From Mesaphorura yosii (lineage: Eukaryota > Arthropoda > Collembola > Poduromorpha > Tullbergiidae): a stretch of 59,953 nucleotides of DNA. The notes below the pieces were generated by a model. That model saw only the letters and a program-made list of their open reading frames with translations, did not search any database and was not told the DNA's origin. The translations under genes were made by a program, and so were the position numbers. Positions 5,763 through 33,339 of this stretch are shown here, in pieces; position 1 is the stretch's first letter; each line of letters opens with the position of its first letter. Where the stretch lies: the NCBI GenBank assembly GCA_009869945.1, contig WIXG01000420.1, positions 1 through 59,953 on the forward strand, written 5' to 3'.

Positions 5763-6951
5763 TCAAGTTTGTCCGTTCGACTTGACGAGTGCCACACGAG
5801 CGTTCTGGAAGTACTGCCCATAAGTCAGAGTCTCTCTTTCCGCCGGCTTCTGGCCTCCTTGGCGTGGATCAAACGGTTCCACGGCACTGTCGTACCCTAG
5901 CATGACGAAGAAAGGCAAGGAGAGGCGCTCAGCGTTGACCCATTTGACACGATGAATCGGGGCCTTGAAGTAGTTGTTGGTGATGTGGGCCAAGTAGCCT
6001 CCTCCGTTGACAAGGAAGCAGTTGTCGGACGAAGGAATGTCCAGGTAACTCCCAGACTCCGTGCACACTTGCAGGTTCGCCACGACTGTCACGACAAACA
6101 AAATAGAAAACGATAATTAAGAATATGAATATATTAACAAGTTAACGTATGTTAACATGTATGTATCAAGTTAATGTTATGATCTGTTACATGGCTGGTA
6201 GAGGACTGTGATGAGTGAGGCGTCCTCGTGGCTCCCGAAGCTGAGCTTGGTTCCATCCTCAGCAGTCTGCACTGGAGGGTATGGGTCGAGGTACGGGTAC
6301 CGAATCAAGCGCACCGAAGAAAGCGTATCCTCCTTCCGAAAGTACGCGTCGAAGAAATTCTCCTCCTTGCCCAAGGCGAGCGCAAACCCTCGCAACAATG
6401 CCGCGGACACATCAAACATTTTCCAGTAAAATAGCTCGGCAAATTCTTTGAAGCCCGCATGTTTGCTTTCATCCGGCCAAATGTTGACTTCGTGCAAGGG
6501 AACGCCTGCCTTGATTTTCGGGTGCTCGGGAGTAAAGTTGGGGTTCAGGTAGCACTGTCTCGTAAAAGAGATATTCAGGAAGCCCGTATAATATACACTG
6601 ACATTGAATAAAAAAGCAATCTATTTATAATGGACAAACATTACTTACGTAAGACTCGACTGCCTTCTTGCCCTTGATGGGCAGATAGTAGCCGTTGCGC
6701 GCCTGCTTCGTGTTGGCCTCGTTGTATGCGACAATCGCCAGCTGCCACTTTTCCTCGTCGCTCATACTCTGGTGGAACTTGCGCGTGACACGCACTAATT
6801 CGTCCAGCACGTCCACTCCGTGGTTGGCTGCGAGGAAGAAGCCCGTGTCGAGACATGCAGCCTCAATCTCCTTCGCAACGCGCTGCTTCTCTTCAGCGCA
6901 ACTTCCAAAGAGTGCCGAAATGTCAATCGTGGGAATCGATTTGCTATTCAT
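5763..6951 (-). CDS. pcbC: Isopenicillin N synthase
   Basis: This non-haem iron oxidase closes the ACV tripeptide to isopenicillin N with O2, forming the beta-lactam and thiazolidine rings. Three exons (6649-6951, 6191-6554, 5763-6085) join with phases 0 and 1 to give 329 residues, the usual IPNS length. The iron ligands are present: His210 and Asp212 in [10 protein letters not shown], and His267 in [13 protein letters not shown]. The substrate-carboxylate pair Arg276/Ser278 (ERLS) is kept, as are RYPYLDPY and the C-terminal NGQT. KKAVESY joined to CYLNPNF across intron 1 reads through a hallmark IPNS block and confirms the splice. One change is visible: the Trp before the first iron His in fungal enzymes is Ser209. 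It sits at the left edge of the cluster, next to the exporter. Family identity is very strong; transfer from microbes is inferred from known springtail IPNS genes. Confidence 0.96.
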
Positions 6952-7351
6952 TGTGACCTGCTTCTACTTTTACAGATCCTTTGCTGAAGAATGAATAGTG
7001 AAAGTGGTGTGTGTTGGACTAAACTCAAACTGAAAGTGAGCAAATAGCGCAGCGACACGCTAGCTTTTCTACTTGCAATACCGTACCTATATTGACTATG
7101 TTCACCAGTGATTGGTGATGTGATTTGTATAATAATAATAATCGTCGCATTTACTTCCAGGAATTGACAGTGTGCACGATTATTTCTCTTGAATTTAGCA
7201 ATGGTCTTCATTCGTTTCTCGCTAATTGGGGCGATGGAAATTTTTCAATGCTTTGGCAAGTAAGTCCGAGAGATTTAATTTTAAACATTGACGTCAGTAT
7301 ATTCTACTTAAAGCTTGAAGGTACGCGGTGACCTTTGACTGCGGTTTACAA
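6952..7351. other. pcbC upstream region and exporter 3' flank
   Basis: This 400-bp gap holds the pcbC promoter and the 3' end of the ABCC gene, both on the minus strand. I see an AT-rich stretch with a short ATA/AAT run near 7127-7142 but no clear TATA box and no gene. Confidence 0.4.
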
Positions 7352-12922
<5,571 letters not shown>

Positions 12923-13400
12923 TCTGAATTTGTAAGAGCAGGAATTATTTGTTATTATTTGTGAGTAGTTGCGGACAGCAACACAAGTCAAATAGCGTCA
13001 AGATTGTTTCGTGAGTGCGTTTGGGGTTCGCCTTGTACCTGATATTGGTTCGCAAATGTAAATGATGCGCATGTGAATGTATGGGTTAGGTGCAGGAAAT
13101 TACTGCAAACAGATACCACTTTTCCAGCTAAATAATTGACAACGAAAGAGCATGATGCATAATGCATGGCATGGCATTTTACGTGGGTAACACAACAATT
13201 CCATGGAATTCTTGTTATGACTTAATTGTATCGTAGGAAAGGTTTAACCTTTGATGGGACACACCACCACAACAACATGAGTTCACGCGTTTCGAGAGAA
13301 ATCATGATCTGATCAGTGAGCATTTGATCATGTTAATGATGAGCCGCAGAGCAAAAGCACAATACACGCTAGGGGAAACTGAGACTGTTGCTTAACAAAC
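12923..13400. other. Exporter upstream region
   Basis: This gap would carry the ABCC promoter on the minus strand. It contains several CATG-rich words (for example around 13140-13180), but I see no gene and no confident TATA box. Confidence 0.4.
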
Positions 13401-14039
13401 AAAGCAGGGACGAGTTGCGCTTATCCGGCACACATTCAATCAGGCTCAGGCTTGGGCTCGGGCTCGGGCTCAGACTCGAACTTGGGCTCAGGCTCGGACT
13501 TGGGCTCAGGCTTGGGCTCAGACTTGGGTGTACTTCTATAATTTTCGTGTGGTAAGCCTTCTTAATTTCAGATGCTGGTGCCGTCTTCCGCAGTCCAAAC
13601 AACTTGTAAAGTGATTTGTGCCGGGGTTTTAATACAGCATGAATTTCATCGTCTGTGATATATAAATCTTTAATTAATAATTATTCTCGTCAATGCATTC
13701 CATTCAAACCCAATCTAATCAGCCCCAAAACCTACCACTACTACTGTCTTCCGCTTGGGTCATGCCTCGGTTAGAAAGTCCACGTTGCTTTAATCGATGC
13801 TCAGGCTTAAAACGACGTAGTCAACTCTCGCAAAACTTCGCAATTTTTGTTCACTGTTTTATTCATTTCGTGCTAAAAGTTTTTTTTTCATCACGTCTTT
13901 ATGATACAATTTTGGGGGTTCAATTTCACTGCCTCAAAGAGGGAGCTCAAGCATCAACTATTAAATTGAGTCCGAGCCTGAGCCTGAGCCTGAGCCTGAA
14001 TTGAATGCGTGTCGGATAAGCGCAACTCGTCCCAAAGCA
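13401..14039. mobile_element. 627-bp non-autonomous TIR transposon with captured J-domain fragment
   Basis: Element bases 13407-14033 are flanked by the 6-bp direct repeat AAAGCA (13401-13406 and 14034-14039), a target-site duplication. The ends are inverted repeats beginning GGGACGAGTTGCGCTTATCC, matching over about 34 bp with two mismatches and one indel, then passing on both sides into arrays of GGCTCA/GGCTCG hexamers. There is no transposase. On the minus strand near 13533-13615 the interior encodes a J-domain-like segment (LYKLFGLRKTAPASEIKKAY, then HTKIIEVHP) resembling the DNAJC9 type. It stops exactly at the HP of the HPD motif, where the hexamer array takes over. Confidence 0.8.
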
Positions 14040-14340
14040 GCCTATAATTTGGAATCAATCAGTCATACGATTCAGGGCATAGTCATATGATTCGAGAACG
14101 CCTTTATTGCATACATTCATGGACTAAATCAGCAGGTCTAAATGATCAAACGATAAAGTGCTGATATTACACTGATGTAACTTGCACCTCGTTGTTGTTT
14201 GTCTGGGCTCACTTCGATTAGAATCTTAGGTCAGGATAACGTCAAGTTGACTTGGAATTGTCCCTGTGCAGCGAGGAAAACGATTGTAACAGCTATAAGA
14301 TATAGTCGTCATACTACCACTACATACAACAAATGTTTGC
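14036..14340. other. Short intergenic region
   Basis: About 300 bp between the transposon and the first expandase-like gene. I see no gene; it is the 3' flank of the gene to its right. Confidence 0.4.
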
Positions 14341-15261
14341 TTACCACTTGGTATGCATGTCTGTGTAATTGCCTCCGATCCAGTCCGCGAACGTCGCTCG
14401 CTCCCCAGCCAGACTCAAGTCGAATCCAAACCCTTTGGCCGACGGAACCGAAAACTCAAACTCGGGTCTCGGGCGCAGAAAAAAGACATTGGAATTTCGA
14501 CTGCTCCCCTCGCGTTGACTTGCGTTTGGTGCCACCACCTGATGCCTTGGAGCCAAAAGTCGGCCTTCCGTCATTACGGTCCCCACGGCACCACACATCA
14601 CGACAAGAGTGTCCGGAATGCTCGGCAATTCCACGAAACGCCCACCAACCTCGCACTGCAGGCTGACGAAGCCATTGGCACAGGGTGTCTGGTAGATGAG
14701 AGTCACGATGGAGAGGTCGTAGTGCGGCGCCATTCTCAGGGCCTCCTTCTCGGCACAGCGTTCGGCGGGTACCTCAGGATACAGCCTGCACCTGAGTACC
14801 GGGTCACACGCCTCCAACTCCGCCTCCGCAGAGAAGCCGACTGCAAGCAGTGCCTGCCTTGCCGTCTCCTTGGCGACCTCGTGCATCCTCTCAAAGTACT
14901 TTTCCCAGACTTGTTGGAAGCGTGTTGAGGGAAAGAGGTTGTTGGAGATGCCCATCGAGTAGCACATTGAATAGTCGGTGTAGTTGCCGTTGTTGGTCAC
15001 CTGAGCCACGCTCTCTGCCTCCAGCTTGGAGTAGCCACGCCGCAGGACAGGGATTCCCGTCACGACAGCTGCCTTCTCCTCCTCGCTTGCGTGCAGGAAG
15101 AAATCCATGACGACGCCCCTCGCCTGCTCGTGTTCCTTCTCGGGAATGCCATGGTCCTTGAGGTAGAAGATGCCTTTGCGCACGAGACACTCCTCAAAGG
15201 CCGCTCTGCCCACACCAGCCTGCAGCTCCTTCAGACTGAAGATGGGAACATGGGATTCCAT
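14341..15261 (-). CDS. Deacetoxycephalosporin C synthase-like expandase/hydroxylase, copy 1
   Basis: An intronless 306-residue 2-oxoglutarate/Fe(II) dioxygenase that matches bacterial DAOCS/DACS (about 311 residues) along its whole length. These enzymes expand the penam ring of penicillin N to a cephem (CefE) or hydroxylate the 3-methyl group (CefF). The iron triad is intact: His180 and Asp182 in MAPHYDLSIVTLI, and His240 in APRHQVVAP. Arg255 in GSSRNS is the 2-oxoglutarate anchor, and Arg157/Arg159 (RCR) hold the substrate-side arginines. Other hallmarks are TDYSMCYSMG, QTPCANGFVSLQ, VFFLRP and DWIGGNY. It is closer to bacterial CefE/CefF than to IPNS. It stands head-to-tail with a second copy 478 bp upstream. 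Which copy expands and which hydroxylates cannot be told by eye. The absence of introns suggests recent acquisition or a retrocopy. Confidence 0.93.
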   Translation of the reverse strand: MESHVPIFSLKELQAGVGRAAFEECLVRKGIFYLKDHGIPEKEHEQARGVVMDFFLHASEEEKAAVVTGIPVLRRGYSKLEAESVAQVTNNGNYTDYSMCYSMGISNNLFPSTRFQQVWEKYFERMHEVAKETARQALLAVGFSAEAELEACDPVLRCRLYPEVPAERCAEKEALRMAPHYDLSIVTLIYQTPCANGFVSLQCEVGGRFVELPSIPDTLVVMCGAVGTVMTEGRLLAPRHQVVAPNASQREGSSRNSNVFFLRPRPEFEFSVPSAKGFGFDLSLAGERATFADWIGGNYTDMHTKW

Positions 15262-15739
15262 CGAAATTTCGTCTCTTGTTTACCTAATCAGATTATAATA
15301 GCGCATATAATACATGCGTCTTTTATGCTTATGCATATTTAGTTACAACCTCACCTTGCTTTGCAAAGTGCTTGCCAAGTTCACTCAAGTTGACTTGTTT
15401 ACAATTTTCGAGATGGGAGAAATGCGAGTGTTTGTGGCACTGAAATAGATGATAGATAATGATGAGCACACCGGGAGTTAGTTAAGTTCTGACACTTACT
15501 CTTCGCTTTCACACTGCTTTTATCTCAACCCGTCTCTCAGCGTCATCAATAATTCATGTTAATTCTCCGTTGCAAGCTCGCCAGAGTCGATCTACTGCTG
15601 CTCATCACAACAAATATTCATGGCACACACAGCACTCAGCTTTAATGAATTAATTGTCTCAACTTGTATGACGATAACTTCGATCTCTTTATTTCAAGCA
15701 ACGGTCAGCATTAATTCTTTCAGACTAACAAGATTCTGT
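15262..15739. other. Promoter and spacer between the two expandase genes
   Basis: This 478-bp spacer separates the tandem copies, so copy 1 appears to have its own promoter and is not read through in an operon. I see no other gene. Confidence 0.45.
15320..15327 (-). promoter_or_regulatory. TATA-like box of expandase copy 1
   Basis: On the minus strand the bases read CATAAAAG, about 60 bp upstream of the start codon at 15261. Confidence 0.45.
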
Positions 15740-16708
15740 TCATTTGTTGGTTTGTTTGGACAAATCGTTGTAATTTCCACCGATCCAGTCTCTGAAGGTG
15801 GCCACCTCACTGCCCCGCACGCAAATGTCAAATCCACACTTCTTGGCTGCCACCGTGGAGAATTCAAAGCCCGGACTCGGACGCAAGAAGAAAACGGCCG
15901 ATGTGCGTGCGCTGCCAACTTGCTCGCGGGCGGAAGGAGCGACGACCTGGTGCTTCGGAGCTTTGATGTCCCCGTCAGTCACAAGCGTTGCGACCGAGCC
16001 ACACATGACAAGTAGCGTGTCAGGAATGGCGGGCAAAGGCACTTGCTCGGAACCGTGCTCGTACTGCAAACTCACGAAGCCATTGGCACAAGGTGTCTGG
16101 TGAATGAGGGTCACAATCGACAGGTCGTAGTGCGAAGCCATCCGAAGTGGCTCCTTCTCGGCGCACCGCGTCTCATCTACAGCAGGGTAATTGCGGAAGC
16201 GTAGAACTGGGTCACAGTCAGCCAGCACTGCTTTCCTCTCGGCTTCCTCAACGTCCATGACGCTGAGGACGAGGTCGGCAATGTCGAGAGCCACCAGATT
16301 AATGCTCGCAAAATACGAAGTCCAAACTGCTTGGAAGTGGTTGGAGGGGAAGAGATTGTCGTGGTTGCCCATGGAGTAGCACTCGGAGTAGTCGCTAAAG
16401 TCGCCGGAGCCCGTCACCCGCGCCGTGCTCTCCGACTCGAGCTGCGTGTAGCCTCGACGCATGCCAGGCACTCTGTTACTCACCTTCAGACGTTCCTCCA
16501 CACTCGCATTGCGAAAGAAGTCCAGCGTGGCCCCTCGCACAGGCTCGTGGTCAGTCTCGGAGAGCCCCGAGTGCTGCAGATAAAAGACGCCATGCTCGGT
16601 GAGACAATGCTTCAGCTTGGCAGCACAGCGCCCCGCTCGCAGCTCTGGCAGGCTGAAAATCGGAACCTTCGGAACTCGGTTTGTATTTCCCTCAACCATG
16701 CACGTCAT
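15740..16708 (-). CDS. Deacetoxycephalosporin C synthase-like expandase/hydroxylase, copy 2
   Basis: An intronless 322-residue paralogue of the neighbouring gene, again colinear with DAOCS/DACS. The iron ligands are His193 and Asp195 (MASHYDLSIVTLI) and His253 (APKHQVVAP). Arg268 (GSART) is the co-substrate anchor and RFR at 170-172 keeps the substrate arginines. The N-terminus is about 10 residues longer than copy 1; Met4 is an alternative start. Differences from copy 1 in active-site loops (YSECYSMG versus YSMCYSMG, MASHYD versus MAPHYD) suggest that the two have specialised, as CefE and CefF have in Streptomyces. An ancestral duplication within animals or two separately acquired genes are both possible. 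A strong TATA box precedes it. Confidence 0.93.
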   Translation of the reverse strand: MTCMVEGNTNRVPKVPIFSLPELRAGRCAAKLKHCLTEHGVFYLQHSGLSETDHEPVRGATLDFFRNASVEERLKVSNRVPGMRRGYTQLESESTARVTGSGDFSDYSECYSMGNHDNLFPSNHFQAVWTSYFASINLVALDIADLVLSVMDVEEAERKAVLADCDPVLRFRNYPAVDETRCAEKEPLRMASHYDLSIVTLIHQTPCANGFVSLQYEHGSEQVPLPAIPDTLLVMCGSVATLVTDGDIKAPKHQVVAPSAREQVGSARTSAVFFLRPSPGFEFSTVAAKKCGFDICVRGSEVATFRDWIGGNYNDLSKQTNK

Positions 16709-17439
16709 TATGTTTGGAGCCAGCTGAGCTATGCTGATATGATGCTGTGATGGACGGCGAATTTATTTATAGCGAAAGAGGCTGAAAAGGTTTCAAACTA
16801 AAATCATTCAGTAAAGAAACGCTTCGCATGATATTTAGCAGGAATTCAGCAAGTCGTGTAATTCCATGGAAATCTGCGCATGCGCTTGCGTCTCGAGCAA
16901 GGTTTCGTTGGTTTAGTGTGACTTTCATGACACTTCGTTTCTTGGGAAATGAGAGCTGAACTGCACGTCAGCCGAGCTCACAAAACAAACGGCTCAGATA
17001 TAATCCATTGCCCTAAAGAACTTAATATGACACGACTACAGCGGACGCAAATTTCATGGGAACACACTGACACGATACATGAAGCTAGGTCACCGAGATT
17101 GCAGAGCCTAATTCTGATGGACTACAAAGGTCAGGTCAGATAGCCTTCATCCTGAGTTACGAGTGAGAGCAGCTGCTATATGACAGATTGTAAACAGAAG
17201 GTTAATGCATAATTCTCGTGAATCTCCATGATTCAATTCTAGTTGACTCGGACTGACAGAGGCCGAGCACACTTGTAAACAACTTGATCCAGCTGTTTAC
17301 AAACACGAGCATGCGTTTCTCGCAGTTTGCTTATTCTGATCTCTCCATGCAATATTCAATGTCATGAATTGTCATGCAATGCAGCTACGTAGTGTTTATT
17401 CAATGTCAAATGGGCATTAACATGTTCACTTATGGCGCA
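16709..17439. other. Intergenic region
   Basis: Apart from the TATA box noted, I see no gene, RNA or clear repeat in this 730-bp gap between copy 2 and the CmcJ-like gene. Confidence 0.4.
16764..16772 (-). promoter_or_regulatory. TATA box of expandase copy 2
   Basis: The minus strand reads CTATAAATA 56-64 bp upstream of the ATG, a strong core promoter match. An animal-type promoter on a microbial-type gene implies adaptation to host transcription. Confidence 0.65.
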
Positions 17440-18366
17440 CTAATGGTAATGGTAAAAGACGAGAGCCCTGACCTCGATCGACTGCCTCTGAATACCTAGG
17501 CGGGCACCTTCCTCGTCCAGAAACGCCGAGTGTGGACAACAGCCTGCCACGCCCTCCTCCTGACGGACCACGACGCCCTGCCGCGCGGGTCCGAGTCGAG
17601 CACTGAGACTGTCGTAACATTTGAAAAGTAGCACCTCGTTAGGGTCCATTCGACTGACGTAAAACCACTTATGAGTGCGGCTGTACTTCACGGAGAAGGT
17701 CTCCTTGTCCTTCAGCCAAGGCGGATATTTGATTTCTGTCGCCACCAAATCTCTGTCCACATCCAGCGATCGAAAGTCCAGCAGGGCCAATGGGTAGTCG
17801 TGCACCACGCTCTTGATTGGACGCCATATGTTTATAATCTGAAATCGACGGAACGGTGGAGAGCCAGGTGGAAGATGTCGCATCACGCGTGCTTCTGCAC
17901 TCTTCAATGTCTGATCTACATGGACACGCAAAACTGGGCTACGATGCAACGGTGTCTCAGCTTCCGACGACTCACTTCGCCGAATGGTGTGGTCAAAGAA
18001 GATGACCTGGTCCGCTCCGGTGACCCGCTTCAGAAGACGCTCCACTTCTGGGTAGTACAGTTCCTCCACGGCATTGCCCCCACACAGCAACGTGTCAGAG
18101 TGTATCAGTGTGGGTGAGTGGAGCATCTGGAAGCCACAAGTGTCGAGACTAAGCTGTAGCTGCTGCTCTCGATCCCGCATGTCCAGGATGGAGACGAGAC
18201 GAGGGTCGTCGTCGAAGTTGGTGAGTTTGCTTCCATCCGGATTAGTGATTACGTCGATGAACCAACCCTTATCGCCGGATTTGGATATACTGTAGTTCAG
18301 CCTACCCATCACGTCGCGTGAGCCCACTTCCGCAGTGCCATTACTTCCCTCTATCTCCATTACCAA
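17440..18366 (-). CDS. cmcJ: CmcJ-like cephamycin methoxylation protein
   Basis: An intronless frame of 308 residues belonging to the CmcJ / GA4-desaturase-like oxygenase family. Family signatures are visible in order: VLRVHVDQT near 145, then INIWRPIKSVVHDYPLALLDF near 175-195, KWFYVSRMDPNEVLLFKCYDS near 230-250, and the terminal SIEVRALVFYHYH. In Streptomyces, CmcJ works together with CmcI to install the 7-alpha-methoxy group on the cephem nucleus; CmcJ homologues are not expected outside such pathways in animals. The length equals the bacterial protein (about 310). Here the CmcI partner lies 1.6 kb to the right with one gene between. The start chosen gives MVMEIEG; Met3 is also possible. 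It faces the PLP-enzyme gene across a 300-bp divergent promoter region. Confidence 0.85.
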   Translation of the reverse strand: MVMEIEGSNGTAEVGSRDVMGRLNYSISKSGDKGWFIDVITNPDGSKLTNFDDDPRLVSILDMRDREQQLQLSLDTCGFQMLHSPTLIHSDTLLCGGNAVEELYYPEVERLLKRVTGADQVIFFDHTIRRSESSEAETPLHRSPVLRVHVDQTLKSAEARVMRHLPPGSPPFRRFQIINIWRPIKSVVHDYPLALLDFRSLDVDRDLVATEIKYPPWLKDKETFSVKYSRTHKWFYVSRMDPNEVLLFKCYDSLSARLGPARQGVVVRQEEGVAGCCPHSAFLDEEGARLGIQRQSIEVRALVFYHYH

Positions 18367-18666: not shown

Positions 18667-19873
18667 ATGATGGAGCCCTATAGTTTGCCATACAGTGGGC
18701 ACACATTGTCCAACGTCCCAACCCACAAGTTCAAGGTTTGTGAATCCAGCTATGCCTCAGACTTGCACGTCTTAATTGTAGCAATAATAGTCTGAATGAT
18801 TAATTTTGTTTGCTCAGCTGGGCAACTGGCCCACGCCGCTCGAGAAATGGACCTTTTCTATTTCGGACGGCAGCCAGCACTCGATGCTCATTAAGAGAGA
18901 CGACCTCAGCGACCTGACAGCACATGGAAACAAGATCCGCAAACTCGAGTTCATTGTGCCAGATATTTTACGAGGAGAGCACGACTGGATCTTGTCGTTG
19001 GGGCCAACACAGTCCAACAGCTGCCGCGTCGCCTCGGCCATCGCCACTCGAGTTGGACTCAAAGCAGCGCACGTGCTCATCGACCGAGAAGAAGCAGGTG
19101 CAGACTCCGTGCACAACTCAACGGCAGGCAATCTCTTCTTCCATCATGTTTACGGAGCGACGCTGTTTGTGAGATCGAGAGCAGAGTACTTGGTCAAAGG
19201 TCAGCAGGCACTGCTCGACGAGGCAAGGACCAAGCTGCTGAACGACTTTGGGGCGATCAAGCCATATATTCTGCCAATGGGCGGAAGCAACCTGCAAGGA
19301 CTCTTCGGTTATGTCCAATGCTTTCATGAGCTGGAGATGCAGCTGGCCAGCCAACAACTCGAAGGAAAAATTGATGAGCTGTTCTTCAGCTGTGGGAGTG
19401 GCGGCACGGCTGCTGGACTGGCGCTGGGCAAGCATCTGGCAATTGCCGACTCGCCGCTACACAACGTCCGCCTTACAGGTGTCACAACACATCAAAATTA
19501 GTCATTTTTCAAGTGCATGAAATTATAAAAATTTGTTCATTTCACAGGCTACATTGCTTGGGAGTCTACGCCCGAGCATTTTCACCAACACATTGACGCT
19601 ATGTTTGCCGAGTTGGGGCTACACATTCGTTCTGCAGACGTTGTGACTCTGCTGCCTGCTTGGGGACAGGGCTATGCCACACTCACGGCGGAGGAGGTGC
19701 AGCTCATCAAATCCATCGCCCGCTCCTCCGGCATCATTCTTGACGGTACCTACACGGCCAAAGCAGTACAACAGTTTCTGAAAGAGGGCAGACCGGAAGG
19801 CTGGCGTTGCATATTTCTCCACTCAGGAGGTCAGTTTTCCATGATTGGCGATCCAACATTCAAATCACATTAA
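18667..19873 (+). CDS. Fold-type-II PLP enzyme, D-cysteine desulfhydrase / ACC deaminase family
   Basis: Three exons (18667-18735, 18818-19478, 19548-19873) give 351 residues. The junction of exons 1 and 2 restores HKFKLGNWPTPLEKW, the family opening. GNKIRKLEF contains the PLP-binding Lys, LGPTQSNSCR the substrate loop, PMGGSN the mid-motif and SCGSGGTAAG the phosphate-binding loop; it ends with ILDGTYTAKA and LHSGGQ. Known relatives degrade D-cysteine to pyruvate, H2S and ammonia, or open ACC. No role for this family in beta-lactam synthesis is established. Its place between cmcJ and cmcI suggests either control of cysteine and sulphur supply for the ACV tripeptide or, more speculatively, the missing isopenicillin N epimerase step. 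Two adjacent in-frame ATGs start exon 1. The last few residues may be affected by an undetected further intron. Confidence 0.85.
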
Positions 19874-19995: not shown

Positions 19996-20784
19996 TCATT
20001 CGTCCAATTGCATGACTTTGAAGACGCCGTCACGAAGTTGGCAAGGGACGTTTGAGTAGAGCAGGTCCAGGCGCATGACGTGCTTGAAGGCTGCGAGGTG
20101 CGAGGCGAGAATGTTGGGGCTGTACCTCTTCCACAACCCCATCATGTCCTCCAGCACGATGTAGTCTCCTCCAACCAGCACATTGTTCACCGCCTCCCTG
20201 AGCATATTGAAAGTGTTGCAGTGCGCATCGTCGATGAAGAGGATCGGGTGTTCCGCCCCAACAAGCGCCTCCACCAGCGACTCAGGTCGATTGCAGTCTG
20301 CCGAATGCAGCAAAATGTCTTCCATCTCAGACTCCTTGATTTGGCAGCGAGAAAGGTCGTTGTCCAGACCAATGACACGGCACGGGAAGCCGAATGCTCG
20401 TGCGAGGTCCCTGAACAATCAATCATACTTTGAATTTGCAATTGAATTTGCAAGTTACAATTGTACCGACCTGAACCAAAGGAGTGATCCGCCGCCATAG
20501 ACGCCAACCTCAACTACGGTTCTTGGCTTGAGTTCCCAGAGCAGGTTGTGGTAGACTGCCTGGGTGTCAGGGTCCTTGAGCAGACGCAGACCCTTCCACG
20601 CCACTGCGGGCATGTCGTCATAGCCGAGTTCTCTCGGCGCAGTGCTCCACTCATCCAGTGGCCAAAAGCGCTGTGTGGCCAACACGGGTGCGTGGTAGAC
20701 GACATCTTCCCCGAGACCCCGGAAACGGTTCAAGTCAACAAATTCGCCTTCTACCGCCACTCGCTTCTTCTCTTCGCTAGACAT
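19996..20784 (-). CDS. cmcI: CmcI-like cephalosporin 7-alpha-methoxylation protein
   Basis: Two exons (20471-20784 and 19996-20410) join in phase 2 to give 242 residues, against about 236 in Streptomyces CmcI. Similarity is extensive: VDLNRFRGLGED, WPLDEWSTAPRELGY, RLLKDPDTQAVYHNLLWEL, VVEVGVYGGGSLLWF (the SAM-binding motif I, interrupted by the intron just after it), GLDNDLSRCQI, LFIDDAHCNTFN and DYIVLEDM. CmcI uses S-adenosylmethionine and a metal ion and acts with CmcJ in methoxylating C7 of cephalosporins. Restoration of WFRDLARAFG across the 60-bp intron confirms the splice. It overlaps nothing, ends 122 bp from the convergent PLP-enzyme gene, and is divergent from pcbAB. Confidence 0.95.
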
Positions 20785-21835: not shown

Positions 21836-24800
21836 ATGGCCATGATGCTGCCAGATCCTTCACAACGGTGTGATTTCAAAGGGTTGTTCACATATGGCAA
21901 GGTCTCTGTGCCGACGTCTGGGTCGGCCAGAGCGGTGCAGGAGGCCGTGCTTCCGAGTAGCCTGATGGCTCAACTGAAGAAGCAGTCGGCAGTGTCTGCG
22001 GACGCTTTGATGCAATTTGCGATGCACAATCTCCTCAACGTTTATGGCAATGGAAATCACACACTCGTCGGCAGCGCTCGCAAGGACGGATGCACGACCA
22101 TCTTCCTCGACCATCAGGAAATCGGTGGCCAGTCAGCTCACCAAGTCTTGCACTCTATTCAACGGGATTTGCAACTCGGACATGCACACACCAACACATC
22201 ACACACTCTCGACGCCTGCATCACAATTCAGCGAGGAACATCCAACGGCCTTCGACTCCCCACAGCGCCACTTCTTCTGACTGCACACGAAAGCCTCAAT
22301 GGAGACGGCGGATGGAAACTGGAACTCAACTACGACGAAACACTGATCGACTTGCGCCTGGCTGCTGATTTCCTACACTTCCTCCAAACTCTGCTCAACC
22401 AGTTGGTCGTCAAGATAGAGCAGCGTGTTTCAGAGCTCGAGCTGCTCTCGGCTGCACAACTGGAAGAGATGCTGGCATGGAATCAGCTTACAGACGGACA
22501 ATTTCCCTCGGACCTCAGACTCAACCAGCTCTTTGAGGAGGCGACTGTTCGAGCACCCGATCGCGTGGCAGTCGTGCACAATGAAATAAAGTTGACGTAT
22601 CGGCAGCTGAACGAGCGGGCCAACCAGGTGGCCCACCATTTGCACCACACACTGGCCATGCAACCGGAACAGCTAATTGCGCTCTGCTTGGACAGGCACG
22701 TAGGCCAGATCGCCACCGTGCTCGGAGTTTGGAAGTCAGGCGCTGCGTACATACCCATTGACCCCAGCTACCCTGACGAACGAATCTTGTTCACCATGCA
22801 GGACACCGCCGCGCGTTTCATCCTCACCGACAGCTGCCATGCGAGCAGAGTCCAATCACTCGTGTCCTCGTTGGGCGTAAAGGTAACATAGTAACGTAGT
22901 ATTGCTGACCATGATGACACTAACAAAGCATGAATTATTTGTCAAGGTGCTCGTGCTCGAGTCGATCCTCAGCGCATCGCCAGAGAGCAGGGACTGGTGC
23001 AACAACCTGAGTCTGCCGCTGAACAGCACGCAACTGGCTTACGTGACTTATACGTCTGGGACTACGGGGGTTCCGAAGGGCGTGTACAAGGAGCACCGTG
23101 GAGTGATCAACAGTATCACGGACCTCTCCGCAAAATATGAGATGACCGCGAGTGAGGTGCAGGAGCGGGTAGTTCTCTTTTCTGCATACGTGTTTGAGCC
23201 TTTCGTACGCCAGACGCTGATTGCCCTCATCAACTCGCACCAGCTTATCCTCGTGGATGAACAAGATAAGCTCGACGAACGTCGATTCGTCGACTTCATC
23301 CAACGACACCGCATCACGTACGTACCAACTTCGAATCCTTTAAATTAAATCAGCATTTATCGATTTATAAATTGTCCAAACATCTTCAGATACCTGAACG
23401 GCACGGCTTCTGTGCTGCAGGAATACGACTTCTCTGCTTGCCCCACCCTCTCGAGGCTTCTCCTCGTCGGGGAAGAGTTTACGGAAGCCAGGTGTACCAA
23501 GCTGAGAGAGACGTACCGCGGTCGCATCATAAGCGAATATGGTTTCACCGAGTCTGCGCTCGTCACCGCTATGAAGGTCTTTGAAGTGGACACTCCTCGC
23601 AACGACCGCAGCATCGGCCGCCCACTGCGGAATGTCAAGTGCTATATCCTTAACAGCAACATGCAAAAGGTGCCTGTCGGAGCCATCGGTCAGCTCCACA
23701 TTGGCGGACTGGGCGTGTCCAGAGGATACATGAACCGTGCCAAGCTTACTGCCGACAAGTTCCTACCAAACCCCTTTCAGGTATCATGACCAAGTGTATT
23801 TGCTTCTTCAACGCATGAGTCTGCATAGAAAGCACTTAATGAAATTAATTATTGCATAATTGCACTGACAGACGGAGCAGGAGGCACGGGATGGAGTGAA
23901 CAGCAAGATGTATGCGACAGGGGATCTTGCTCGCTGGCTTCCTTCTGGTCAAGTGGAGTACATTGGAAGAACAGACTTCCAGATTAAATTGCGTGGCATT
24001 CGCATCGAGCCTGGCGAAATCGAGTCCATTCTCACGGCCTGCGATGGAGTTGACAAGTGCGCAGTGATCGCAGTCTGCCCAAACGGACAGGATGAAGCCA
24101 AGAAACAACTGGTCGGCTACTTTGTGGCGGAACCTCAAGCTGTGGTGCACGAGGAGGAGCTGATGGCTGTGTTAGAGGCCAAGCTGCCACGTTACATGGT
24201 CCCCGCAAGACTCATGCAAATCGACAAGATCCCGGTCACTATCAACGGCAAGCTGGATATGCGAGCCCTGCCCAAACCTGAGTGCTGGACACGCCCTCTC
24301 AAATCAGATGGACAGCGTCCACTAAACGAGATTGAGAAGGTTCTCTGCGAGCTCTGGAGCCACACGCTTGGCATCCCGCTCTGCGAGATTGGGCCACAGG
24401 ACGACTTTCTGCGCCTTGGCGGGCACAGCATCACTTGCATTCAGCTCCTGGGGCGTATCCGCCAACGGCTGGGATGCACCGTCGACGTGGACACACTCTT
24501 CACGCTGAGAACAATTGAACGCCTTGCCCAACGGCTCCAATCTGCAACAAATGGGAATTGCAACAGTCAAAACAAAGAGCAGGGATTGGCTGATGCAGAT
24601 GCTGGCTCGGAATGTTGTCAGTTTCTTGCCAACAGTTTGCAGCAAGGCCTCGTCTTCCAATACTTGCGGAGTCTGGACAGCGGTATGGAGGATGACTCGT
24701 ATGTACTGCAGAATGTATACGAGTACTCGGCAGAGCTGAACCTCGCTAACATGAAGCGTGCGTGGCGACTCGCCCCGCAACAGTTTCCAGCACTCCGACT

Positions 24801-27800
24801 TCGCTTCGCATTGCAAGACGGGGAGATTGTACAAATAGTAGACCCGGTGGAGGAGCAGCGGTTACAAAGCTGGACCTGCGTCGACCTGTCCTACATTGCC
24901 GAGGATGCCGAGCAGGAGACACAGTTACGGCGCCTTGAGAAGGCAGACAGATGCAAGGCCTATCGACTGCTGGAGAATGGTGGTCTCTTCCGTGTCTACC
25001 TCTTTCGGTTGCGAAGGAACGTGCACAGGCTGTTGTTCAGTTGCCACCACAGTATCCTCGATGGATGGAGCATGCCAGTCCTTCTTGACTTTGTGCACCA
25101 AGCCTACTACGCGCTATGCAATGGGGAGGAGGTGGCGGTGAGGCCCGACAAGGCCTACTGCAAGGCACAGGTCTACCTTGAGCGCCATCGCACAGACCAC
25201 ACCGACTTTTGGAATGGGCAATTGGCTGGAATCTCGACCCGCTGTGACATGAGTTCCCTCCTCAACGAAGCGTCCCGCTCAGACCCTGACATCCAGTTGA
25301 CCACCTACGACCACATCAAGGAGCCTCGCGAGCTGCGTCTGAGCATCAACGAAGAGTCTTGTCGGCTGGCCCGAAGCTTTTGCACCTCGCATGGAGTCAC
25401 CCTGCATACACTCCTTCAATTTGTGTGGCACAAGGTTCTGTACTCCTATGGCGGAGGATTCGGCCAAGCACAGACGGTAGTGGGCACCGTCCTCTCAGGC
25501 AGACACATGCCTGTGGACCACGTTGACTCATCAGTCGGCATGTTTGTCAACACGCTCCCGCTGATTGTCAAGCACGGCGAGAGTACGGCAGCAAGCGTGC
25601 TTGAAGCTATCCAGGCTATTCAGTCGCAGGTGAATGCCATGAACTCACGTAGCGGTGTCGTGCTAGCTGAGCTCGGAGGCGGTAGTGGGCTCAAACACGG
25701 TCTCTTCGATTGCCTCTTCGTGCTCGAGAATTACCCGCAACGCCAGAGCCGAGACTACGACCAGCTCCTTGGTTTTCGGTTTCTGTACGACGTCGAGAAG
25801 CTCGACTACCCTCTCGTGGTGGTCGTCCGACACGACACAGCTGGCGGTCTAGAATTTCGCATCAAGTATGCTGGAGAGTTGATTGAGGAACACATGGTCA
25901 ATGATATGCTCAGCCTCGTCCAACACCTTTTACATCAAGTTATCAATGTAGACAGAGCAGACATGAATTTGGCGGACTTGTGCTGCGTGACTCCTGAGCA
26001 CCGTGTCCTCCTCGACACGTGGAACCAAACACGGGACGACAGAATGCTGGACGCTGCCTATTCCCTGACTTTGCATGCTATATTTGAGGAAGAAGCAGCT
26101 CGCTCTCCCTCCAAGCTGGCCCTCGTCTTCAAAGAACGTCAACTGAGTTACAAACAGTTAAATGAGGCAGCCAATCTTCTGGCACATCATCTGCGTGGGA
26201 TGGGGGCGGGGCCAGGGCAGTTGGTTGCCCTCTTCATGGATAAAACAGACTACCTCATCGTGTCTATCCTTGCTGTCTGGAAATCGGGAGCCGCGTATGT
26301 GCCCATTGATCCTTCCTACCCCAACGAACGCATCCTTTTCATGCTGCAGGACACACAGGCCAGCATCGTGCTCATGGCACCCAAAGAAGGCAGTGAACAC
26401 GACGAGTCAAGCAAAAGCGAGGAGTGGCTGCGTAAGCAGCCACTGTCACCGCCGCCCACAGTCGTGCATGTGGACGCGTTACTCAGTCACTCGCACTTAG
26501 CCATTGCTCAGTCATTGCGCAATCCAAACCCGCTTGCAACGAGTAGAGACCTTGCCTATATCATCTACACATCGGGTACGACAGGAAACCCAAAGGGAGT
26601 CATGGTCGAGCACTGCGGGGTCGTCAATCTACAGCAGTCACTTGCGTCCATCTTCAACCTGCGTGCTCGCGAGGACGAAGTGATCATGTCCTTCTCAAAT
26701 GTAGTATTTGACCACTTTGTAGAACAGATGGTGGATGCGCTGCTCAATGGGCAGACCCTCGTCGTCCTCCCTGACTCCCTCCGAACTGACAAGGATGGTC
26801 TGGCGCAGTACATGGCCCAACATCGGGTGACGTACGTGTCGGGCACGCCCTCTGTCCTCTCACTGTACGACTTTGGCTCGCTGCCCAGTCTACGACGCAT
26901 TGATGGAGTGGGCGAAGACTTCAGTTCGGCCATTTACAGAAAAATCCGCTCCTCTTTCGATGGCCTCATTATCAACGGCTATGGCCCGACCGAGGTGTCT
27001 ATCACGACACACAAACGGCTGTACGAGTTGCATGAGGATCGCACCAACAAGAGCATCGGGAGTCCGGTGGCCAACACGACGACGTACGTACTGGACAGCA
27101 ACATGCGCCAGGTGCCAGTCGGTGCTCTAGGTGAGCTTTACATTGGTGGAGTGGGCGTAGATCGCGGCTACCTCAACAGACCTCAGCTCACTCAAGAACG
27201 CTTCCTGCCCAACCCATTCGCCAGTCCGTCAGAGTCATACAACGACCGGCTGTACAAAACTGGGGACCTGGTCCGTTTCCTTCGCAACGGAGAGATTGAG
27301 TATCTTGGAAGGACCGACCTGCAAGTCAAGATCAATGGTGTCAGGATCGAAATAGGGGAAATCGAAAACGTGCTCCTGGGCTTCGACGGAATCAGCGCTG
27401 CGGCAGTCGTACTGGCTTCCAGCAACGGAGCGGGCAAGAACCAGCTGGTTGCGTACTACGTGAGCGAATCCCCACTCAACGCTGAGCACCTGACTGAGCA
27501 TATCAACAACAAACTACCATCGTCCATGCGACCTCATCTTGTGAGAATATCGGAGATGCCACTCACAAAAAGTGGGAAAGTGGACAGTAGACGCCTGCCC
27601 CAATTTGCAGTGACCCCAGTGGAAGTATTCGCACAGCCAGGTGCAACTGCTCCGACCAACCACCTGCAAGAGCGCATTGTGCAAATATACGCACAACTCC
27701 TCACAATACCTTCACATGCCATCGGAGTTGGCGATGACTTCTTCAAGCTTGGTGGTGATTCTCTGCTCGCCATTCGTCTCTCCATCGAGCTCAACAAAGT

Positions 27801-30800
27801 GTTTGGGGTGACAATCAGCGTGGCACATGTCTTCAGGCTGAGAACTATTCTCAAGTTGTCGCAGCACATTGAAGCGGCAAGCAACGGAGCGAGCAAGAAC
27901 CAGCTGAAGATGGGAGAAGAGAAGATGGCTGAAGAGAGACTGGATGAAGAGCAAAGGCGACAGACCGACACGTGTCTCTCCTTTGGTCAGGAGCGCCTAC
28001 TCTTCATGCACGAACTCATGGGTGGCGACCTGTTCAACGTCGTCTTCTGCGTCAAGGTGTCATCCAATGTGGATAAGGCGGCTCTGAAGCGAAGTATCCT
28101 GGGTGTGATTGCTCGCCACGAGGCGTTGAGGACTCTGATAGTGACAGATGATGTGGGTAGGAAAAGGCTCCACGTCCTAAGGCCAGAGCACTCTAGCAGC
28201 AAGCTCGTCTTGAACGAGTCAGTGGTTCACTCTGCAGAACACCTCAATTCCTGCATGCTGGCAGCCTCCAAGTGGCACTTTGCCCTTGAGCGCGAACTTC
28301 CAATTCGTGTCGACATGTACGAGTGGTGCAAGAGTGACAACAACACACGTGAGTTGTTCATTGCCTTTGTGTTCCATCACATTTGTTTCGATGGCTGGTC
28401 GTGGTCCATCTTCCAACGAGACTTGCGGTACTTTTACGATCTCTTCACCGCGGCGAATGCTTCTACTAATAGCCTGCTGCAAAAAAGTATTTCTGCGCCT
28501 CCTCCACAGTACAGCGAGTTTGCAGGGTATCAACGACGGTCACTCAAGAGCGACAAGACGACGAGACTACAGCTGCAGTACTGGACTCAAAAGCTTGCTT
28601 CGGCTCAGCACACGCTCAACCTTATCACAGACTACCAGCGTCCAGCAGAATTCCCTGCCAACAGCGGCGCAGACTTGCCGTTTGAAGTGTCGCACGAAGT
28701 GGCAACTAAATTGAGAGCATTAGCCCGTGAACTGCATGTGAGCTTGTTCAGTGTCCTTCTGAGTGCATACTGCCTTACACTTGAGGCCTTCACAGGCCAA
28801 ACGGATATGTTGGTGGGCATACCAACGACCACTCGAGCCATCACGCCCGGTTGGGAAGACACGATCGGATTCTTCGTCGACCTTCTCGTGGTGCGAGTGC
28901 GCAACAATATCAACAACAATAACAGCATTGCCGAAGTGATCCAAGCAGTGGCGACTGAACTTGTGGAGGCGCAACGGCATCAAACCATGCCCTTTGACAA
29001 GATTGTCCACGCTCTGAAGCTGGAGACGGACTTGAGTCGACATTCGCTCGTGCAAACAGTCTTCAATTACAATCCAGTCGGAAACCCGGATCACCATGAA
29101 GAAAATAGTAGCCTGCAACTTGATGAGATTGAGCTGAAAGCGCCATGCACGGTGGCAAAGTACGACTTGGCGTTGACAATGAGCGACAGCGGGCCTTCTC
29201 TAAAGGGTCACCTCAACTTCCCGTCAGCCCTCTTCCGAGTCGAGACGATCGAGTCTATCTTGCACACATTCCTGCAGATATTGAAGTGCCTGTCCGCGAA
29301 GGAGACACACATCGACTGCCACGCCTTGCGTACAGCCACCTCGGCCCAACCATCAGCAATCCCTGAACCAGTCAAGTACAATGAGCTGGTGGACAGATAC
29401 AGTCCTAGCAACACTCTGTCGACGTTGTTTGAGGAGACAGTGAAGCAGAATCCGGACAGTGTGGCTCTTGTCTCGACGGAAATGAGTATGACCTACATGC
29501 ATTTAAATTGCAGTGTCAACCAGCTAGCTGCCCATCTCAGGAGTGTTTGTGCAATCGGCCCCGAGAAAAGGATTGCACTTCTGCTCGATAAGTCCCCCGA
29601 CATGGTGGTGAGCATGCTCGCTGTCTGGAAGGCGGGTGGCGTGTGCGTGCCGTTGGATGTCGGGTGGCCAGCAGATCGCATCAGACTGATACTCCAAGAC
29701 ACGTCCTCACAAGTCGTGCTCACCAACCAACGTCTCTTTCCTACTCTCCAAACAATCTCCTCACAAAACGCGCAGATCATCTCAGTCGACGATCCAGACA
29801 CAAGAAAGCTACTTCAGGAGCAGTCAACTGAGAACACTCCTTGCCATTTGGAGCCACACCATCTGGCATACATCATCTACACGTCGGGAAGCACGGGGAA
29901 ACCCAAAGGAGTTATGGTGGAACACATGAGCGTCGTGCAGCTACATTCCAGCCTCAAGGAGCTTCACTTTGGTAAGAAGAACTCAGAAAGGCAGCAGGAG
30001 CAGCAAGGCGTCCTCTTCACATCCAACTACGTCTTTGACTTTTCCATTGAGCAGTTCCTCCTCTCCATATTCTCTGGCCACAAACTCATCTTGCCTCCAG
30101 AAGGAGACGCACTCAACATTGACGACCACTTCTATCAATACGCCAACGCGCAGGGTCTTACGTACTTGTCAGGCACTCCCACGCTTCTCTCCCAGTTCGA
30201 CACAGCCAGCCTGAGCAGCTTGCATACGCTCACCGTCGCTGGCGAAGAATTTCAAGCACACCACTACCACAAATTAAGACGCCACTTTGCAGGAGTCATC
30301 AATAACGCTTACGGGACGACAGAGACGACCGTCTACAACATGATCCATCAATTCAGGTCAGGAGACTCGTACAGTAACAACCTGGGCAAGACGCTCCCGG
30401 GCACCACAGCATATGTGCTAAACGATGAGATGCAAGAGGTTGGCGTTGGCAGCGTTGGACAACTGTGCCTGGGAGGACCTTGTCTGAGCCGAGGCTACCT
30501 CAATCAACCACAACTCACCGCCAACAACTTCAGACTAAAACAGCAACCTAAAACAAACAGACACAAGGACGTACAAGAGGAGGCACACGACGGTAGTAAG
30601 GTTCAGTTGTACCTGACTGGAGACTTGGTTCGGCGCACCGCAGACGGACGCATCGAATTCCTAGGTCGACGGGATCGTCAGGTCAAGCTTCGTGGTCTTC
30701 GTGTCGAGCTCGGTGAGATTGAGTCAACACTGGCTTTGGCTCCAGGGGTGCGGCAGTGTGCGGTTCTGGTTAGAGAGCGAGAGACCAAACTACTCGTGGC

Positions 30801-33339
30801 TTACTTCGTCCCTGCTCAAGGATATGATGTAGCCATAGAGGAGCTGAGGGCATTCATACAACAACGGCTGCCGAGTTACATGGTCCCAAGTCACTTTGTG
30901 ACGGTTCAGGGAAATTTGCCGACTACTGCCACCGGCAAGTTGGACGTCCAACGCCTTGCACTGCTACCAATCCCACAGGACTCGAATAATGCATATGCGG
31001 CACCTCGTGACCAAATCGAGTCAACATTGTGTAGCGCATGGGCATGCGTTTTGAATTTGCCAGACTCCGAGCTTGTGGGGATAGACGACGACTTTTTCAA
31101 ATTGGGTGGAGACTCAATCTTGCTCCTCCAACTGGTGGCGCACATCCAGGCGACATCGTGCAGCAGTCTGCAGGCTCACAACTACCACAAACTGGTGCGA
31201 GTCAAAGACATTTTTATAAACAGAACTGTGAGGAAACTCGTGCAGCACTTGCGGACTGCACCCGCCAGCCAGCCTATCGATGCTCATCTGCATCTGCCCG
31301 AGCAAGGGCGTTTGAGTGGGACTCTTCCACTGCTGCCCATACAAAGTTGGTACTTTTCCCAAGAGCACAAGAATGGTATCTCGTGGAACCAACGCTTCAA
31401 GATCCACGTGCCTCACCAGCTGGATCCAGTGAGGTTGAGGAAGAGTGTCCATGCGCTGATTGAGCACCATGACGCCTTCAGGCTAGGATTTCTGGTAACT
31501 CAAGGCAATGCAGAAGCAGTACAATACTACGACGACTCTGCTGCTGTGCTCCAACTTCACGAGTATGTGATTCGGACAATCGACCAAAGCAATGAAGATG
31601 AGAGCAAGAGACTGAGGGAGTGGGAGTCCAACATCGACATGGGGACAGGACAGTTGGCTGTGTTTGGATACATTTCTGGATACGCCGACGGCAGTTCGCG
31701 AGTGTGGATTGCCATGCATCATCTGATCACGGACACTGTCAGTTGGCGAGTCATTGCCCAGCACCTGCAGCGGTTGTACAACGGAGACACTCTGGGGCCA
31801 AAAAAAACTAGCTACAGGCAATGGACGCAATTCATCAGCACTTACAACCCACGTGAAGAACTCGCTCATTGGCAAACATCCACCGAAGGAGTTGAGGCTT
31901 TCAATCGGTCTCTCCTCAAACTCGTCCCGCCAAATGCTATAGCTCAACGCGTTTCAATCACTCTCAACAAGAATGACACGCTCTCACTGCTTCGGCTTGG
32001 TTCGTGGAACATGAAGGATATTTTGCTCACTGCGTTTTGCCACTCCGTGCAGTCCGTCATCACGACTGTACCAACTACTCGACTTGACTCCGCTTCGCCT
32101 TTGTACCTCACTTTGGAGGGCCACGGCAGAGAAGATTTACACCCAGCACTACAACTCGCAGAAACGGTTGGCTGGTTCACTACCATGTTTCCATTCCAAG
32201 TGCAGCTGTGCCAGAGTGCTTCGGATAGTGTACAGCGTGTCAGACAGGCGTTGGATTCGGTGTCACACAACGGAGTGGGCTTCGGAGCTCTGTTCGGCTA
32301 CACTTCTCCAGAGAAGCCTTTGCCACGCATAGCCTTCAACTACCTGGGACACTTTGGTGGCCCTGATCTTGCTTCCAGTAACAATGCGAGCAATGCAATG
32401 TGGAAGCTGGAAGCCAATGGGGAGTATGACCCATCACAGTGGTCAGCAACACAGTCCAACGTCATCGACCTGACCAGCTGGTGCGCAGAAGGACAACTTC
32501 ATGCTACCATCACTGCATGGCTCCCAGACGGACTGCCACACAAACTTGCAGAAGCACTAAAGAAAGAACTGTTGCTCATAGGAAACAATCCTGCGATGGG
32601 CGTCAACAGCTCTCCGCGAAATTGGATGCCCTTCGAAGCTTACGTGGAGTTGGCGACGCAGAATGAAAGTGCACCCACGCTATTCATGCTTCCTCCGGGC
32701 GAGGGTGGTGCTGAAAGCTACTTCAACAACTTGGTTCCACTCTTAGAGGCACATTTCAATCTTGTGCTCTTCAACAACATTTACATCCACCATGAAAACA
32801 AACTCGACAGCTTTGGCAGCTTGGCTGACTATTACATCGAGCACATTGAACGGATACGACCAACGGGTCCTTACCACCTGCTTGGCTGGAGTTTTGGCGG
32901 TGTGCTTGCTCTGGAAATTGCTCATAAACTTGCCAACACCGGGAAACAGGGTTTGGTAGCCAACTTGTTCCTTATCGATTCATACTTCAATGTTGCCAAG
33001 GCGTGTGCAGAAATTGGACTGGGCCACGAAACCAATATCCTGGATCCAATCAATCACAAGTACGAGCCAAGTATGAGTGAGGTTGAAGGGAAACTTGCAA
33101 CTGGCAGCATAACACTCTTTAAAATGGGTCTTTTGAACGAGATGGGAAAGAGTGAGGAGCAGGTGCAACTCTTCAAACACTTCCAGCACACAGACTGCAA
33201 TCACCTGGACACCATCATCAGCGCTGAGTTGTTTCGCGTGGTCAGTCTGCCAACTGCTTCTCACAACTCGTGGGCTCTGGACAAACAACTACTCGCTCTA
33301 ATTTGTGACGACATTAAATTGACTATTAGTTACTACTAA
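21836..33339 (+). CDS. pcbAB: ACV synthetase (non-ribosomal peptide synthetase)
   Basis: It makes delta-(L-alpha-aminoadipyl)-L-cysteinyl-D-valine, the IPNS substrate. Exons 21836-22882, 22947-23317, 23390-23780 and 23872-33339 give 3,758 residues, as in known ACVS. Order: N-terminal ACVS-specific region (1-220), A1 (from 225), T1 with GGHS near 790, C1 with HHSILDG near 996, A2 (from 1340), T2 with GGDS near 1897, C2 with HHICFDG near 2105, A3 (from 2455), T3 near 3015, epimerase with HHLITD near 3219, and thioesterase with GWSFGG near 3608. Specificity codes read by eye are EPRNLVELVK (A1; known ACVS aminoadipate code EPRNIVEFVK), DHESDVGITK (A2, cysteine) and DFESTAAVYK (A3, valine). All three introns lie inside A1; the final 9.5 kb is uninterrupted. 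The ATG has an AAGATGG context. An AATAAA follows at 33460. Confidence 0.97.

Follow-up and report, generated by a model that had tools for sequence, protein, structure and literature searches.

A cephamycin-like gene cluster with a candidate isopenicillin N epimerase in the genome of the springtail Mesaphorura yosii

Introduction

Does an animal carry the genes for a methoxylated cephalosporin and, if so, how would it supply the epimerisation on which such a pathway depends? The question is raised by contig WIXG01000420.1 of the springtail Mesaphorura yosii (assembly GCA_009869945.1, 93 Mb in 1127 contigs; C420 in our numbering), the whole of which, 59,953 bp, we analysed and refer to as the window. 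Between positions 5763 and 33339 it holds genes for ACV synthetase (ACVS), isopenicillin N synthase (IPNS), two members of the deacetoxycephalosporin C synthase (DAOCS) family, CmcI- and CmcJ-like proteins, a fold-type II pyridoxal phosphate (PLP) enzyme, and an ABCC-type exporter. An earlier note on this DNA had described them as a complete and intact cephamycin-type cluster in an animal genome and had doubted whether the find was new.

According to the accessible text of PMC6097109, isopenicillin N is not a substrate of DAOCS and has to be epimerised beforehand, a step for which prokaryotes use a PLP epimerase and fungi an unrelated CoA route. On the sequence evidence, the locus described here is a real, arthropod-encoded, cephamycin-like cluster. 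Our fuller reading, to which we give a probability of about two in three, is that a horizontally acquired beta-lactam pathway resides in the nuclear genome of an arthropod and would lead to 7-methoxy-cephems, with the PLP enzyme in the place of the epimerase CefD.

Results

Pathway genes of the window

From left to right, the genes are those for IPNS, the exporter, DAOCS1, DAOCS2, CmcJ, the PLP enzyme, CmcI, and ACVS (Table 1). All eight lie where the earlier note had put them, and the ends of IPNS and ACVS mark exactly the span that it claimed. Its statement that the genes are intact holds for the seven pathway products, none of which contains an internal stop; the exporter frame was read by eye only, and we do not vouch for its wholeness. 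Spliced gene models were made for ACVS, IPNS, CmcI, and the PLP enzyme, whose eight introns measure 60 to 105 bp and are all of the GT-AG type.

Bacterial counterparts were taken from 13 loci of 10 genomes, fetched by DAOCS alignment with flanks of at most 10 kb (a contig scan with DAOCS1 alone gave no match). At a blastp threshold of E<1e-20 and with open reading frames of at least 100 amino acids, 7 of these loci had CmcI, 6 had CmcJ, 7 had IPNS, and 9 had an ACVS stretch of more than 1500 positions. CefD was present in 8 of the 13 and the O-carbamoyltransferase CmcH in 4. Absences from these loci mean little because the flanks end at 10 kb.

ACVS comprises three A-PCP modules plus epimerisation-type and thioesterase domains, with Pfam matches to AMP-binding, Condensation, PP-binding, and Thioesterase, and its 9.5-kb last exon is intact coding sequence. 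The protein is 37 to 43% identical to the nine bacterial stretches over 2218 to 3129 positions. Its pocket residues, placed by motif, read EPRNLVE in module 1, DHESDVG in module 2, and DFESTAAV in module 3, the same as or one residue away from the bacterial EPRNLVE, DHESDIG, and DFESLAAV (3 of the 9 bacterial rows cover module 1, 8 cover module 2 fully, and 6 cover module 3). We take these codes to stand for aminoadipate, cysteine, and valine, in that order. IPNS aligns over its full length with the seven bacterial proteins (54 to 59% identity over 324 to 334 positions) and visibly retains the HxD...H and RLS motifs and the C-terminal NGQT, whose roles we assume to be those usual in IPNS.

DAOCS1 matched the DAOCS structure 1e5h with an E value of 1.8e-112. 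DAOCS2 is 55% identical to DAOCS1 and 45 to 54% identical to the bacterial DAOCS rows, and it scored 57 bits against PF03171. Residues H180, D182, H240, and R255, presumably the ligand residues of DAOCS, belong to the columns that do not vary in an alignment of 15 proteins and are kept in both copies. In a tree of the best 120 of 224 matches (this tree and those below were made by a quick method, without bootstraps), both copies belonged to a 40-row group (SH-aLRT, 99) together with a fungus gnat row, Lysobacteraceae pairs, and other rows, the order within the group not being settled by the tree. The locus has two DAOCS-family genes for the predicted expandase (DAOCS) and hydroxylase (DACS) steps, either of which may fall to either copy.

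Both predicted components of 7-alpha-methoxylation are also present. CmcJ matched the CmcJ/NvfI model NF041278 at E=7.1e-73 and 245 bits (cut-off, 80) and is 41 to 45% identical to CmcJ of the six bacterial loci that have it. Exon 2 of CmcI matched the CmcI structure 2br3 at E=3.8e-40, and the protein is 50 to 58% identical to CmcI of the seven bacterial loci that have it.

Table 1. Genes of the cluster and a host marker gene, in left-to-right order
Feature	Position	Strand	Exons	Introns	Length (amino acids)	Remarks
IPNS (pcbC)	5763..6951	-	6951-6649, 6554-6191, 6085-5763	two, 94 and 105 bp	329	isopenicillin N synthase
ABCC-type exporter	7308..12922	-	multi-exon, boundaries by eye			Pfam domains ABC_tran (two exons) and ABC_membrane (one exon)
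DAOCS1	14344..15261	-	intronless		306	expandase/hydroxylase (cefE/cefF type)
DAOCS2	15743..16708	-	intronless		322	second expandase/hydroxylase, in tandem with DAOCS1
CmcJ-like	17443..18360	-	intronless		306	7-alpha-hydroxylase component
Fold-type II PLP enzyme	18667..19873	+	18667-18735, 18818-19478, 19548-19873	82 and 69 bp	351	candidate isopenicillin N epimerase; head to head with CmcJ
CmcI-like	19996..20784	-	20784-20471, 20410-19996	60 bp	242	methyltransferase
ACVS (pcbAB)	21842..33339	+	21842-22882, 22947-23317, 23390-23780, 23872-33339	64, 72, and 91 bp	3756	ACV synthetase
Myosin essential (alkali) light chain, muscle	38957..39445	-	open frame			host marker, 5.6 kb past ACVS

CefD and CmcH have no match in the assembly

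The description of the cluster as complete found no support in the sequence. A CefD query from Lysobacteraceae, which is 49 to 56% identical to CefD of seven other bacterial loci, retrieved from the 93-Mb assembly only two genes, at 25 and 28%, neither an ortholog of CefD with its class V aminotransferase fold. CmcH likewise had no match in the assembly, an empty answer that alone shows little. "Complete" is too strong a word because DAOCS needs an epimerised substrate and because neither a CefD ortholog nor a CmcH match was found.

These two genes were rejected as CefD candidates. Both are class V PLP genes of the assembly of the window (L023:1384-2592 and L024:1177-2391), 61% identical to each other, and both were closest among solved structures to Egt2 (158 and 167 bits), the hercynylcysteine sulfoxide lyase of the ergothioneine pathway. 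At L022:7216-10972, a Pseudoalteromonas locus combines a tandem DAOCS pair, IPNS, and CmcI with a gene that directly adjoins the pair and resembles alanine racemase; no CefD lies within the 20.9 kb that were fetched. The adjoining gene is possibly another replacement for the epimerase, on the bacterial side; it had no match in the assembly of the window.

The PLP enzyme is a candidate for the missing step

The fold-type II enzyme encoded between CmcJ and CmcI is single-copy, no second copy being present in the assembly, and no counterpart was seen in the 13 bacterial loci. Its best structural matches are D-cysteine desulfhydrases (E=1.3e-32), with ACC (1-aminocyclopropane-1-carboxylate) deaminase weaker, and the best of eight family models for the whole spliced protein, TIGR01275, scored 209.2 bits, under its cut-off of 289.4. 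In common with the Salmonella D-cysteine desulfhydrase StDCyD, as described in the accessible text of PMC3344862, the window enzyme has the fold family, the Schiff-base lysine, the Gln-Ser-Asn motif, and the equivalents of both tyrosines; it differs in having QSNS and LDGTY where StDCyD has QSNH and LDPVY.

These two differences are shared by a group of relatives. Of 1566 matches the best 120 were aligned with the window protein (121 rows), and in a tree of 81 rows (the window plus 80 of those 120), a 21-row group containing the window enzyme had an SH-aLRT value of 99. At the histidine column of QSNH, this subclade has serine in 20 rows and cysteine in 1, and histidine is found elsewhere in 96 of 98 non-gap rows; at the proline column of LDPVY, glycine or alanine occupies all 20 non-gap subclade rows, and proline is found in 90 of the 98 others. 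One subclade row, P0136, has phenylalanine at one catalytic tyrosine, and the window enzyme has serine where most of its kin have threonine in HTGG.

All of the named members of the subclade are eukaryotes. The close set includes Pseudolycoriella hygida, Bradysia odoriphaga, Arcella intermedia, the eukaryote transcript P0132, and jgi, lgn, and ena contigs; bit scores drop from 307 at the 24th row (P0144) to 209 at P0145, a shorter row that still lies near the close set in the tree. One ENA contig (P0121) carries a fragment 98% identical to the window enzyme over 57% of the query. The residue changes mark a distinct subclade, judged from the alignment, and enzymes of this family can act on either hand of a substrate; neither point proves epimerisation. 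We put the odds that this enzyme is an isopenicillin N epimerase that replaces CefD at about even.

Linkage in other eukaryotes and fungus gnats

Linkage among the matches was inferred from equal contig size together with a shared source, for the rows that carry a size (119 DAOCS, 114 PLP, and 117 CmcJ). DAOCS and CmcJ gave 22 equal-size pairs, 21 of them with a common source, among them rows that carry the name of a single Streptomyces; we took the remaining one as chance. A single same-source pair of PLP enzyme and CmcJ was found in 114 x 117 rows, namely P0142 and P0246 (both lgn, 6956 bp). The number expected by chance is 0.2 over all lgn rows, 0.07 when the PLP rows are confined to the 13 from lgn in the close set, and 0.0014 at 6956 bp. 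Another PLP-CmcJ pair of equal size (P0200 and P0273, 1515 bp) comes from differing sources and was taken as chance.

P0142 is 77 to 80% identical to the PLP enzymes of both fungus gnats, and the genes of P0142 and P0246 probably share a contig in this fungus-gnat-like sequence. Rows P0124 and P0126 are window-type PLP enzymes of Bradysia odoriphaga and Pseudolycoriella hygida, and a DAOCS-like protein (P0104) lies on a 15.2-Mb contig of Bradysia coprophila. Taken together, the gnat proteins of DAOCS-like and PLP type suggest a beta-lactam pathway in Sciaridae; we found no paper in the open literature that joins Bradysia with deacetoxycephalosporin. A broader proposal, to which we give only just less than an even chance, is that a PLP enzyme derived from D-cysteine desulfhydrase is a third solution to cephalosporin epimerisation, one that completed a cephem pathway in soil arthropods and then spread, linked to CmcJ, among eukaryotes that include fungus gnats.

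Points against an epimerase in the cluster, and possible epimerisation elsewhere

Several points weigh against a pathway to 7-methoxy-cephems with the PLP enzyme in the place of CefD. The reactions for which the family of this enzyme is known are those of D-cysteine desulfhydrase, cysteate lyase, and ACC deaminase and do not include epimerisation, and its subclade includes Arcella intermedia, in which beta-lactam genes were not looked for. The change from histidine to serine alone says little because in StDCyD the substrate touches the main chain of His80 and the H80Q mutant lost 50% of its activity on D-cysteine, remaining half-active (PMC3344862, accessible text). The linkage of P0142 with P0246 is drawn only from matching contig size and source, and 119 x 114 rows held no equal-size, same-source pair of DAOCS and PLP enzyme. 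Gaps in the assembly could conceal CefD or CmcH. Finally, DAOCS2 is fast-evolving, with the longest end branch among the DAOCS rows, at 1.1 changes per column.

The strongest rival explanation accepts that the cluster is arthropod-encoded and moves the epimerisation elsewhere, to an unlinked racemase, to a CefD1/CefD2-like acyl-CoA route run by ordinary animal enzymes, or to a CefD that was not assembled. The PLP enzyme would then be an auxiliary, concerned with cysteine/sulfur balance or D-cysteine removal, or an unrelated neighbour. Its kinship with D-cysteine desulfhydrases in both family model and structures, its retention of the lyase catalytic residues, and the fungal precedent of an unrelated CoA route (PMC6097109, accessible text) all fit this explanation, which has more trouble with a gene that is absent from the rest of the assembly and faces CmcJ head to head, that probably sits on one contig with CmcJ in another eukaryote, and whose subclade departs from its relatives at a column that hardly varies among them. 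We regard this explanation as a real contender, somewhat short of an even chance.

The predicted product

Supposing that the PLP enzyme does act as epimerase, the pathway can be proposed as follows. ACVS would join aminoadipate, which LAT and PCD supply in cephamycin clusters and which in animals arises from lysine breakdown, with cysteine and valine to form ACV, and IPNS would close ACV to isopenicillin N. The PLP enzyme, for the missing CefD, would invert the aminoadipyl alpha-carbon of isopenicillin N to give penicillin N, the ring of which one DAOCS would expand to deacetoxycephalosporin C; the other DAOCS, or the same one, would then hydroxylate. CmcJ and CmcI would add the 7-alpha-methoxy group, and the ABCC protein would export the product. 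As CmcH has no match, the expected end product is a cephem akin to a 7-methoxy-deacetylcephalosporin and not the carbamoylated cephamycin C. The cluster would likely make a methoxylated cephem.

The tree of CmcJ (best 120 of 823 matches) was split, with an SH-aLRT value of 100, into a 57-row half that held every row named as a bacterium and a 70-row half in which the window protein is accompanied by rows from bdelloid rotifers, by a transcript whose label, "Phypoly", points to Physarum, by a fungal row, and by a record that bears the name of the moss Sphagnum. The bdelloid and Physarum rows in this half are P0258, P0263, P0272, P0280, P0283, P0286, and P0289.

A further alternative is that the pathway halts early or yields something else, such as a penicillin or an unmethoxylated cephem, with DAOCS2 and CmcJ/CmcI put to other uses. 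The long DAOCS2 branch, the empty CmcH search, and the company of CmcJ with bdelloid rotifers and Physarum, in which a cephem pathway was not looked for, speak for this alternative; against it stand the catalytic columns kept in both DAOCS copies and the retention of CmcI and CmcJ together, co-clustered as in bacteria. We consider it less probable than the rival above but still a fair possibility.

The cluster resides in an animal genome

The claim that the cluster lies in an animal genome was upheld by four kinds of evidence, the first being the GT-AG introns described above. The second is codon usage: that of the seven pathway genes correlated with that of their neighbours at r=0.81 (a rough set of eight, in which the stretch ABC_tm2 has two in-frame stops) and with that of six bacterial loci at -0.42 to 0.68. 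The third is the myosin light chain gene, whose product scored 154 bits against PDB 3jbh and 135 against 5w1a (tarantula and Drosophila), about 100 to 109 against molluscan chains, and at most 93 against vertebrate ones; the lead of 3jbh over 5w1a does not suffice to tell a springtail from a mite. Finally, repeats of TTAGG, the telomere unit of arthropods, gave 21 overlapping matches on five contigs of the assembly, and the reversed sequence, used as control, gave 0. The array of greatest length, 85 bp, extends to the very end of contig C1051 (11,690 bp), and the array on C900 is internal. Trypsin-like genes are also present on the contig of the cluster. Elsewhere in the assembly a gene for ribosomal protein L3 was located, and COX1 had no match.

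The first nucleotide-binding exon of the exporter finds its best match among structures of ABCC4/MRP4 (197 bits). Suring et al. in 2017 are said to have placed an ABC transporter in the beta-lactam cluster of Folsomia candida.

Contaminating or misassembled microbial DNA, which the intronless DAOCS and CmcJ genes and the ultimately microbial type of the genes might suggest, is very improbable given the introns of four pathway genes, the intron-bearing ABCC gene between IPNS and the DAOCS pair, the host-like codon usage, the animal-type genes on the contig, and the second PLP fragment, P0121, from an ENA contig.

Origin of the genes and surroundings of the cluster

The nearest bacterial relatives of CmcI and IPNS are a Streptomyces protein (58%) and one from a Lysobacteraceae metagenome-assembled genome (59%). 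A single donor was sought and none was identified, the nearest relatives of DAOCS, CmcJ, CmcI, and IPNS being different. The pathway genes need not share one donor because the DAOCS and CmcJ trees place them differently.

The gap between the exporter and DAOCS1 contains GC-rich hexamer arrays of the GGCTCG/GAGCCT type (13443-13528 and 13974-13999). Outside the cluster, four long open frames look by eye like multi-pass receptors of the gustatory type (4165-5406, 34110-35381, 41162-42496, and 58602-59951) and had no significant Pfam match. One open frame of 1640 amino acids (50918-55837, minus strand) has an N-terminal DnaJ domain and a remainder without Pfam match and sits in a GC-rich stretch (0.53 to 0.64 per 2-kb step). 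An open frame at 57046-57897 (plus strand) has a weak match, under the cut-off, to DUF4218, a domain linked to transposases, and a fragment of a Barwin/DPBB (expansin-like) protein lies at 2440-2823 (minus strand).

Discussion

The window brings expandases and methoxylation genes into one place, along with a gene that may fill the missing step, and so turns an animal antibiotic of the cephalosporin class into a testable biochemical question. Were the PLP enzyme an epimerase, it would represent a third independent chemistry for this step and could serve to trace similar clusters in further animals. By analogy, the predicted product would likely serve to shape gut or soil bacteria, a role proposed for F. 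candida in the accessible text of PMC5490193.

The doubt about novelty was justified, the combinations of ACVS and IPNS with cmcI and cmcJ (F. candida) and with DAOCS (springtails and Plectus) having both been published. In the portions of these sources open to us, antiSMASH cluster 30 of F. candida has ACVS, IPNS, cmcJ, and cmcI (PMC5490193); springtails and Plectus sambesii have ACVS, IPNS, and DAOCS, with IPNS and DAOCS of Plectus on one scaffold (PMC10531068, in the accessible text of which the word "cephamycin" is absent); and Enchytraeus crypticus has IPNS (PMC8460440). A 2025 survey of springtail annotations (O. dallaii) gives the complete set for no species and the fullest for F. candida (PMC12693562, accessible text), and a Collembola peptide paper also bears on animal beta-lactam genes (PMC10051947). 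For isopenicillin N epimerase in arthropods, the open literature gave fungal work only, and a mite-directed search of it for cephalosporin and ACV synthetase gave no animal cluster by title among the matches listed. In open-literature text, which excludes figures, supplements, and most subscription papers, no animal cluster that combines expandases with cmcI/cmcJ came to light, nor did any account of the PLP enzyme.

With the bacterial cephamycin-type clusters the window shares its enzymes, and 3 of the 13 bacterial loci (L020, L021, and L022) likewise have adjacent DAOCS pairs; the window, unlike the 8 loci with CefD and the 4 with CmcH, has neither of these genes, and it has introns and an animal-type exporter. 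The springtail and Plectus sets also place DAOCS with ACVS and IPNS in animals, but the accessible text of PMC10531068 mentions no cmcI/cmcJ or PLP partner, and the Plectus ACVS is scattered over short scaffolds. The F. candida cluster is alike in uniting ACVS, IPNS, cmcJ, and cmcI in one arthropod locus; its description, in the accessible text of PMC5490193, lists no expandase and no epimerase, and to this set the window adds the tandem DAOCS pair and the fold-type II PLP enzyme. As far as our searches show, what goes beyond the published animal sets is the union of a tandem expandase pair with methoxylation genes in one locus, together with the PLP enzyme.

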